A program made the translations under genes and the position numbers. Positions 2,873-5,584 of a DNA stretch of 12,305 nucleotides are shown here, in pieces; within the stretch, counting starts at the first letter, position 1, and every line of letters begins with the position of its first letter. This DNA comes from Candidatus Heimdallarchaeota archaeon (lineage in GTDB: Archaea; Asgardarchaeota; Heimdallarchaeia; Heimdallarchaeales; Heimdallarchaeaceae). The stretch is taken from the NCBI GenBank assembly GCA_030603505.1, contig JAUVXQ010000029.1, positions 1 to 12,305 of the forward strand, written 5' to 3'. The notes under the pieces are model-generated. The model searched no databases. It was not told the origin of the DNA and saw nothing but the letters and a program-made list of their open reading frames with translations.

Positions 2873-3574
2873 ATGACAAAGGACGAATTAAAATCTCTTG
2901 CAAGTTCAGTGTCCATGCTCAAAAACATGATAGAGAGCATTGTTACTACTGTACAAGACCGTTTTAAAGATAATGATAAGATTATAATATCATTAAAGGA
3001 AAAAATTGAGAATTTTGAAAATAAAATTGATGAATCATCAATTTCTGGCGATACTGGTCAAATAACTGTAAGCCAAGAATTACTAAAGAAAATTGAACAA
3101 ATGGAATTAAGATTAGATAAGTTAAACGAGAGAATTTTACTAGTTGAAGCAGCAAAAAGTGTAAAAACTGAGATTCCTTCAGCTAAACCTGTCATTGATA
3201 TAAGTGCTATTGAAGATATTGCAAAAACTGAAATTGTCACCCCTAAGGAACCAGCTCCAAAATCAGCACCTCCACCAGCACCAGCAGCAGATATACCAAT
3301 ACCAGAAGTAAAAACGACAACTCCGTCTGTTATAGATGCAGAAAGACCCGTGAGCGATGTTGCAAAAGAAGCACCAGCATCTCCAATCCCTAAACCACCC
3401 ACAGTTGTTGATCAAGTACAAGTTACTGACGATGCAGAAACGACTTTACCTAAAACAGAAGAAATAGAGAAAACAGTTCCTGAATCGGAAAAATCAGCAG
3501 AATTATTTGAAGAAGCGGTCAACGGAGACAAATCTGAATTATTAAAAGCCTTAAAAAAGCTTGAAGACATATAA
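2873..3574 (+). CDS. Coiled-coil protein with proline/alanine-rich low-complexity linker, function unknown
   Basis: A 233-residue soluble protein that I do not assign to a family. It has three zones. Residues 1-95 form long charged helices with heptad spacing (a first segment around 5-52, a second 65-95), separated by a short polar gap. Residues about 100-190 are low-complexity, rich in Pro, Ala, Val, Asp and Glu, with clusters such as KSAPPPAPAAD and SPIPKPPT. Residues 205-233 form a final amphipathic helix (SAELFEEAVNGDKSELLKALKK). This is the layout of a scaffold or adaptor with a flexible linker and a terminal docking helix, which is inference only. It starts at the ATG after the short spacer 2784-2872 and lies 44 bases before the GPT gene, so co-transcription is likely. 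The proline-rich zone has near matches (PSAKP, PKSAP) but no exact P(S/T)AP motif. Confidence 0.7.
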   Translation: MTKDELKSLASSVSMLKNMIESIVTTVQDRFKDNDKIIISLKEKIENFENKIDESSISGDTGQITVSQELLKKIEQMELRLDKLNERILLVEAAKSVKTEIPSAKPVIDISAIEDIAKTEIVTPKEPAPKSAPPPAPAADIPIPEVKTTTPSVIDAERPVSDVAKEAPASPIPKPPTVVDQVQVTDDAETTLPKTEEIEKTVPESEKSAELFEEAVNGDKSELLKALKKLEDI

Positions 3575-4927: not shown

Positions 4928-5584
4928 CTACTGTTGAGATTGTAACAGGAACACACGTTTCTTCAAACTATAATACTTTTTTGCAAACTCAAGACTCAAT
5001 ATGTCATAATCTTCAAATTGTTGCTCTATTACAAAAAGCTGACTCTCAAGTCCTAAAATCTCATCATCTAAATGATTTTGTTTTTCTTGTTCTAGTACTT
5101 GAGTTGATGTTTTGCTTACTTTTCTAGACTTCATTTCCATCAATAGACCTCTTTTTTGCTTAAGAATTAAAGCTAACTGATCCTTTTGTTGAGATAGCGA
5201 ATTGAATTGTGTTTGTGGATCAACCCAATCATATTCTACACTTTTCATCCTTGGGGGGACCTTAGAGAATAGACGCCTAATTTCAACTATTACCTGGAAA
5301 AGATGATACGAGGATTTCCATCTAGCAAGCATTCTCATATCAAGTAAACCATTTTTATCGACATTTGGATGTGATATAGGAGTCAAAATATGTATAAGAG
5401 GAGCGCTAGCTGGAAAAGAGTCAAGTAATTGAATCTCAACATCAATTGCGTACTCACCTTCTTCTATTATAATTGGAATGAAACCTTTCCATCTGGTTAA
5501 ATCTCCATCTTTGGGTTGAAAACCATATGATCGTTCATATACAAATTGTGCTTCTTTGCTCAAGATACTATCAGGGATAGGCAT
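4928..5584 (-). CDS. vps23: Tsg101/Vps23-like ESCRT-I subunit: UEV domain, coiled coil and steadiness-box-like C-terminus
   Basis: A 218-residue soluble protein. Residues 1 to about 112 have the E2/UEV fold: a sheet region (GFIPIII, YAIDVEIQLLDSFPASAPLI), then HPNVDKNG (72-79), RWKSS (88-92), helix HLFQVIVEIRRLF, and VPPRM, which matches the PP end of the Tsg101 UEV. The position of the E2 catalytic Cys, ten residues after the His of HPN, is Asp82, so it should not conjugate ubiquitin. Residues about 127-185 are a charged coiled coil. Residues 180-218 (FEDYDILSLEFAKKYYSLKKRVFLLQ) resemble the Tsg101 steadiness box, which pairs with Vps28. Known role of the family: ubiquitin or motif recognition and ESCRT-I assembly. 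Asgard UEV/Vps23 proteins have been reported. No other ESCRT gene is in the window. A good promoter (5627-5634) and AGAGAGG site precede it. An alternative is a non-ESCRT UEV/RWD protein. Confidence 0.78.
   Translation of the reverse strand: MPIPDSILSKEAQFVYERSYGFQPKDGDLTRWKGFIPIIIEEGEYAIDVEIQLLDSFPASAPLIHILTPISHPNVDKNGLLDMRMLARWKSSYHLFQVIVEIRRLFSKVPPRMKSVEYDWVDPQTQFNSLSQQKDQLALILKQKRGLLMEMKSRKVSKTSTQVLEQEKQNHLDDEILGLESQLFVIEQQFEDYDILSLEFAKKYYSLKKRVFLLQSQQ

Follow-up and report, generated by a model that had tools for sequence, protein, structure and literature searches.

The locus described here raises the question of which ESCRT-I subunit, if any, is encoded by a short gene lying within a 12,305-nt stretch of Heimdallarchaeota DNA (hereafter the window, by which we mean the whole of the stretch that was analyzed). 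The original prediction, made from the letters alone, took the product for a compact Vps23/Tsg101-like protein from an archaeon. The archaeal source is correct, and the predicted ORF, read from an ATG on the minus strand and specifying 218 residues, was confirmed (Table 1). Further, all of the motif strings that had been quoted are present where they were placed: HPNVDKNG at residues 72-79, WKSS at 89-92, VIVEIRRLF at 98-106 and VPP at 109-111, while residues 195-214, ILSLEFAKKYYSLKKRVFLL, match the pattern I-x2-L-x-F-x-K-x3-x-L-x2-R-x-F-L-L. The proposed domain order of UEV, coiled coil and C-terminal hairpin is upheld by Pfam and by an AlphaFold2 (AF2) model. The Pfam UEV profile (PF05743) matches at 4.4e-10 with 39.9 bits (cut-off 27); the coiled coil is modeled as one long helix; and the steadiness-box-type C-terminus folds as a helical hairpin with a pLDDT of about 90. 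No catalytic Cys is present, and across 30 aligned family rows the corresponding position is E, D, S or A, with Cys in 0/30. As had also been stated, the protein is about half the length of Tsg101 and lacks a long proline-rich linker. With its Cys-less UEV, stalk helix and steadiness-box-type hairpin, this is best read as an ESCRT-I-type subunit. We infer that it may bind ubiquitin, the UEV being a candidate contact for cargo.

Table 1. Positions in the window of the short-protein gene, its domains and its putative upstream elements
Feature	Position	Strand	Remarks
Gene for 218-aa UEV / coiled coil / steadiness-box-type protein	4928..5584	-	ORF with ATG start; conserved family
UEV (inactive E2-like) domain, residues 5-113	5246..5572	-	
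HPN motif, residues 72-74	5363..5371	-	Kept in 30/30 close-family rows
D82, site of E2 catalytic Cys	5339..5341	-	Zero Cys in entire protein
Long helix 123-159 (stalk / coiled coil)	5108..5218	-	AlphaFold2 model
C-terminal helical hairpin 162-191 / 197-217, steadiness-box type	4934..5101	-	
Putative TATA-like element TATATAAATA, in 122-bp divergent intergenic region	5634-5625	-	Sequence reading
Putative Shine-Dalgarno-like GAGAGG, 9 nt upstream of ATG	5599-5594	-	Sequence reading

In a VIA structural comparison, the top four of 141 aligned chains were yeast Vps23 chains of ESCRT-I, at weak significance. Foldseek with the C-terminal model returned no match below 0.001, and the closest solved hairpins, which belong to Vps23 and not to Vps37, came at E 0.75 or more. 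When the C-terminal profile was run against PDB sequences, none of the 57 matches to E 10 was a Vps37, Vps23 or other ESCRT chain; they were coiled coils, prefoldin, influenza HA2 stalks and similar.

In the nearest genome compared (Heimdallarchaeota 8H_bin2, G001), a 98% identical copy has the same neighbors (L006), and 25 of the 32 homologs found at E<=1e-3 are likewise 218 aa long; the short protein is therefore not the product of a chance ORF. The gene occurs in 21 records (L006-L026; titled Heimdallarchaeota, one of them “Asgard group”) at 51-98% identity. Accompanying it are a small membrane protein and a GT4 gene in 21/21 records, a coiled-coil gene in 19/21 and RLI in 18/21, the contigs of the other three stopping within 600 bases of the short-protein gene. 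By Pfam, the window neighbors are an M28 peptidase, a GT4 transferase, ABCE1/RLI, TrmO and L15e; another is, as we take it from its sequence, IleRS. No ESCRT gene was recognized within the window, as the original prediction had said, and because the conserved neighbors are non-ESCRT genes, the short-protein gene stands apart from the ESCRT genes. At the 19 loci compared from the more distant families (L058-L076), none of the other window genes was found. The gene and RLI form a divergent pair separated by 122 bp, a layout that, together with the TATA-like element and GAGAGG, reads as consistent with a promoter of its own. As a separate observation, the window also encodes at 2873-3574 (plus strand) a 233-aa protein with an N-terminal coil and an acidic proline-rich tail. 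It is 74% identical to its 8H_bin2 counterpart, compared with 91-98% for the other ten window genes; it thus changes far faster than its neighbors, yet it adjoins GT4 in 19/21 records.

Is this protein the Vps23 of its lineage? ESCRT genes, which the original prediction had proposed to look for elsewhere, are indeed found in 8H_bin2. Ubiquitin, Vps22, an E1-like ThiF gene and a pair of Snf7 genes lie on a contig (C9) separate from that of the short gene, where a protein of 471 aa is also encoded. This protein matches Pfam UQ_con at residues 25-116 and VPS28 at 280-468 (1.1e-12), as well as Vps23_core at 213-251, the latter at 4.8e-5 and below that family’s cut-off. It has the make-up of a UEV-Vps23-Vps28 fusion like HeimAB125_14070, the Heimdall fusion described by Hatano et al. 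2022 (PMC9192718). By BLASTP, residues 5-216 of the short protein align with residues 7-262 in the first half of the fusion (26% identity, E 3e-24). We coded the families compared as f1 to f7, which probably together make up the class Heimdallarchaeia, f1 being the family of the window and including AB_125 and 8H_bin2. A Vps23-type gene adjoins a separate Vps28 in f2, f3, f4, f5 and f7 (one locus examined in each); Vps22 comes next in f3 and f4 and, beyond one small ORF, also in f7. At the f1 locus (L136), the Vps23 and Vps28 parts are fused, with Vps22 downstream. Therefore, the fusion is the lineage’s Vps23, and the window protein is a paralog of it. The idea of a “compact” or “minimal” Vps23 is accordingly not supported, and the Vps23 core profile (PF09454), put forward as a check on it, does not match the window protein at E<=10. 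We amend the assignment to a second, Vps23-derived ESCRT-I subunit with a lean toward Vps37.

Two further features are recorded here. In both f1 (L136:3223-3534, minus strand, 104 aa, with zero Pfam matches at 0.01) and f7 (L078:5025-5327, minus strand, 100 aa), a small ORF separates the Vps28 part from Vps22. In another genome (G038), contig C104 carries two adjacent ubiquitin-like genes and an E2-like gene at about 1.3-3.7 kb, while the best ubiquitin match is on C97; the C104 genes could possibly represent a second ubiquitin-like system.

Among the 227 Asgard genomes searched, the paralog is confined to one class. A profile built from short-family C-termini matched 41 of them at E <= 1.5e-24, the next match (3.4e-9) being a Vps23-type frame. 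These are 41 of the 58 genomes of the class and none of the 169 other Asgard genomes; by family, the counts are 22/23 (f1), 1/1 (f2), 3/3 (f3), 7/8 (f4), 0/12 (f5), 0/2 (f6) and 8/9 (f7), in genomes whose listed completeness runs from 52 to 100%, many being incomplete. In a tree of 77 proteins, which took 8/22 f1 short rows and 10/19 fusion rows, the short rows, 26 in all, group into a single clade (100/99) apart from the Heimdall Vps23 proteins and fusions; these make up a clade of their own (93/95), within which the fusions are again one clade (100/98). One protein (L077, from G036) that was fetched as a short protein groups with Vps23 and was counted as such, and the truncated L066 was excluded from profiles and trees. 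The short family is thus an ancient Vps23 paralog of single origin in Heimdallarchaeia, retained beside the true Vps23. Among its distant members (f2, f3, f4 and f7; L058-L076), Pfam UEV is detected in 9/18 and the HPN triplet in 0/18 aligned rows, and the hairpin is still recognizable; the UEV wears away there, as if being lost, while the hairpin stays.

An ancient paralog of Vps23 could simply be a second Vps23, and we weighed the alternative that its homodimer joins Vps28 in another version of ESCRT-I, serving other cargo or another membrane and having no Vps37-like place. The short protein is homologous to Vps23 over nearly its entire length, its C-terminus aligns with that of Asgard Vps23 at 97.6% by hhalign, its closest solved hairpins are those of Vps23, and an Odin Vps23 homodimer with Vps28 has been reported by Hatano et al. 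2022 (PMC9192718). Against this stands the distribution of Pfam matches. Vps23_core is absent among the families listed (25 of 29 and 25 of 60, respectively) for the 30 f1-type and 18 more distant short members, whereas it is found in 50/59 Vps23-type proteins (16/24, 15/16 and 19/19 in the three sets). Instead, the short family leans toward Mod_r (VPS37, PF07200), which is not found among the Pfam families listed (at most 25 per set) for Vps23-type proteins; it appears in 2/30 f1-type members (best 7.2e-5, spanning residues 113-210 with 23.3 bits) and in 7/18 from f2-f7 (best 1.8e-5), the window protein itself being unmatched. Nor is a Vps28 gene known beside the short gene in f1, where loci were compared for the window’s own genes. 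We consider a second Vps23 of this kind unlikely, if still the most serious of the competing explanations.

A genome-wide Mod_r search is one line among several in this comparison. Across the 227 Asgard genomes no protein exceeded the Pfam cut-off of 30.1 bits, and the best short protein reached 25.7; short proteins ranked 2nd, 4th and 7th among the matches listed, among which was also a true Vps23 (G061, E 0.033). PF07200 is noisy at this scale, with matches at E<=1 in 203/227 Asgard genomes and in 11/14 controls, and because of the control matches we rejected the search as stand-alone proof.

Profiles were also compared with eukaryotic proteins. The Vps37 set comprised 116 of the best 120 (of 684) matches to an Arabidopsis query, plants where named, after removal of four longer than 300 aa, together with a human and a yeast chain; for TSG101 we took the best 120 of 1210 matches to one human query, vertebrates where named. 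Both sets are narrow, so that means across them describe non-independent samples, and it is with this reservation that the short HMM gave eukaryotic Vps37 a mean of 14.6 bits (n=118, best 25.7) and TSG101 a mean of 0.6 (n=120), whereas the Vps23-type HMM gave TSG101 21.8 bits and Vps37 2.0. Reversed short sequences, used as decoys with the short HMM, averaged 6.5 bits with a maximum of 17.4, against the best Vps37 score of 25.7. In the converse direction, the contrast was weaker with a Vps37 HMM (short 7.6, fusion 7.0, Vps23-type 4.8, TSG101 11.2), and a TSG101 HMM scored Vps23-type proteins at 7.0 and short ones at 1.9. By hhalign, the pooled short C-termini matched Vps37 at 80% (hairpin, 93%) and TSG101 at 0.1%, also for the hairpin; the Vps23-type C-termini matched TSG101 at 53% and Vps37 at 6%, or 29% and 41%, respectively, with the hairpin only. 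Column shuffles reached the true score in 0/100 cases for short/Vps37 and in 42/100 for short/TSG101; with full Vps23-type C-termini, 0/100 did so for either Vps37 or TSG101.

The preference is uneven. Among subgroups, f2-f4 matched Vps37 at 90-92%, the window’s own family f1 at 8% (hairpin, 55%) and f7 at 2-7%, and Heimdall Vps23 alone matched it at 45-49%. Yeast SRN2 favors the short profile over the Vps23-fusion profile (12.5 vs 2.6 bits), as does the Arabidopsis protein (22.6 vs 11.5), but human VPS37B shows the reverse, with 14.1 bits for the fusion profile and 2.8 for the short one. Thus, the short C-terminus appears to lean toward plant and yeast Vps37 and that of true Vps23 toward TSG101, human VPS37B excepted. 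With the Vps23 C-terminal profile of the fusion (L136:3605-5017, minus strand), that same score of 14.1 puts human VPS37B first among the five eukaryotic sequences compared, ahead of TSG101 (8.0). It may be that the eukaryotic and archaeal hairpins do not divide neatly into a Vps23 and a Vps37 line.

Phylogenetic analysis gave a mixed answer. In a tree of 73 rows and 72 columns, the short proteins and Vps37 are split from Vps23 and TSG101 at 99/99, and the AU test rejected independent duplication (p 0.028) but not the other pairing (p 0.107). This tree took 21/40 short rows and 5/19 fusion rows and omitted five Vps23-type rows (L112, L077, L079, L082 and L086). With the 44 hairpin columns, quick trees retain the split (SH-aLRT 94 and 98), whereas the AU test gives the alternatives p 0.64-0.82 and better likelihoods than the quick tree. 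A 36-row subset does not separate the topologies (p 0.42-0.46). The split is kept with the plant Vps37 subset (98/99.6; alternatives p 0.09) and the yeast subset (96/99.4), and it is lost with a subset of five Vps37 rows and with human VPS37B as the sole Vps37. We set aside the 73-row topology test as proof of a link to Vps37, given the p of 0.107 and the indecisive hairpin columns and subsets. In view of the subgroup, human VPS37B and tree results, we treat Vps37 orthology as a live hypothesis and not as a result.

Position in the complex is a different matter from orthology, and here we lean, with guarded confidence, toward the short protein being the second-hairpin (Vps37-position) subunit of the Heimdall ESCRT-I. 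In the eukaryotic ESCRT-I headpiece, Vps23, Vps28 and Vps37 each contribute one of three homologous hairpins (PMC10936438), and in Odin the third place is filled by a second Vps23, according to Hatano et al. 2022 (PMC9192718). The Heimdall fusion would supply two of the three hairpins within one chain. Most likely, the short protein would use its stalk and hairpin to pair with the Vps23-Vps28 protein and would occupy the second-hairpin (Vps37) place in the headpiece; the outcome would be a heteromeric ESCRT-I offering two different UEV domains to ubiquitylated cargo. We put the short protein in this position because it combines stalk, hairpin and UEV, is kept across the breadth of the class beside Vps23 and has diverged as a group. 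The chief experimental objection to its being needed is that the Heimdall fusion self-dimerizes, as reported by Hatano et al. 2022 (PMC9192718); in such a dimer, one partner could nonetheless be exchanged for the short protein.

A bolder proposal would make the short protein a genuine archaeal Vps37, born of a Vps23/Vps37 duplication in the stem lineage that Heimdallarchaeia share with eukaryotes. This we regard as possible but doubtful. Heimdallarchaeia are closest to eukaryotes in most trees (PMC10936438). If the proposal holds, the archaeal copy retains a UEV that most eukaryotic Vps37 proteins have lost (VPS37A has a UEV-like one), and ESCRT-I was heteromeric before eukaryotes, contrary to the published absence of Vps37 in Asgard archaea. 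The accessible text of Hatano et al. 2022 (PMC9192718) gives Vps23 and Vps28 as present and a clear Vps37 as absent in Asgard archaea, and it presents ESCRT-I as having started as a Vps23 homodimer, with Vps37 a eukaryotic invention. With an ancient UEV/steadiness-box paralog kept beside Vps23 across Heimdallarchaeia, there is a tangible candidate for the headpiece’s other half, and the origin of Vps37 becomes experimentally testable.

Another possibility is that the short protein acts outside ESCRT-I altogether, as a free ubiquitin receptor or as a cofactor that, like Mms2/Uev1, serves an active E2. UQ_con (2.3e-13) outscores UEV in the window protein, its closest PDB sequence matches are Ubc13 and Mms2/Uev1-type proteins, its conserved f1 neighbors (21 loci) are non-ESCRT genes, and an E2 with a Cys is present in 8H_bin2. 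Yet UQ_con beats UEV in the first Vps23-type members as well, and the UEV, for all its sequence resemblance to Mms2 and Ubc13, carries an attached coil and hairpin in the AF2 model; Mms2-type UEVs are not known to have either. In the close family, invariant residues are about as dense in the hairpin as in the UEV. The hairpin occurs in all 41 genomes, whereas Pfam UEV falls to 9/18 in the distant families. A role outside ESCRT-I is therefore improbable in our estimation. That the gene, located away from the ESCRT cluster, is a functionless relic or gene-prediction artefact is scarcely credible, being already refuted by conservation: 42 residues are invariant over 30 close-family members, gene order is conserved in 21 records, and 41/58 genomes of the class retain it.

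The short protein has probably appeared in print already, as an ortholog under another name. AB_125 (G009) carries a 57% identical protein (L013) and, in its whole genome, exactly four E2-like loci; four E2-like AB_125 proteins, HeimAB125_11700 included, are listed by Hatano et al. 2022 (PMC9192718). Since the fusion is 14070 and the others match 07740 and 09840, by length only, the ortholog of the short protein is, by elimination, HeimAB125_11700. In the accessible text of that paper, HeimAB125_11700 is without catalytic Cys, “the 91 to C-terminus region” of its model was removed for low confidence, and the expression methods name 14070 and not 11700; no coil or steadiness box is assigned to it there, nor a paralog family or a role. 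Makarova et al. 2024 (PMC10936438), in the text available, list Vps23 and Vps28, and no mention of an Asgard Vps37 was found in that of Eme et al. 2023 (PMC10307638). A report of an Asgard Vps37 was not found in the accessible literature, searched by title and abstract opening. Thus, the protein is already known from a published E2-like list; its family, paralogy and possible role were not found in the literature so searched.

Set beside known systems, the short protein differs from TSG101 and yeast Vps23 (STP22) in being about half as long and without the proline-rich linker, and its C-terminal profile matches TSG101 no better than many column shuffles do. Eukaryotic Vps37 is marked by Mod_r, and the UEV-like region is missing from VPS37 homologs other than VPS37A (PMC11748760, in the text available); the short family falls below the Mod_r cut-off, and human VPS37B does not follow its lean. 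With Asgard Vps23 it shares UEV, coiled coil, steadiness-box hairpin and homology over nearly the full length, but it forms a separate clade, has no listed Vps23_core match, lies outside the ESCRT cluster, has a shorter linker and is unfused to Vps28.
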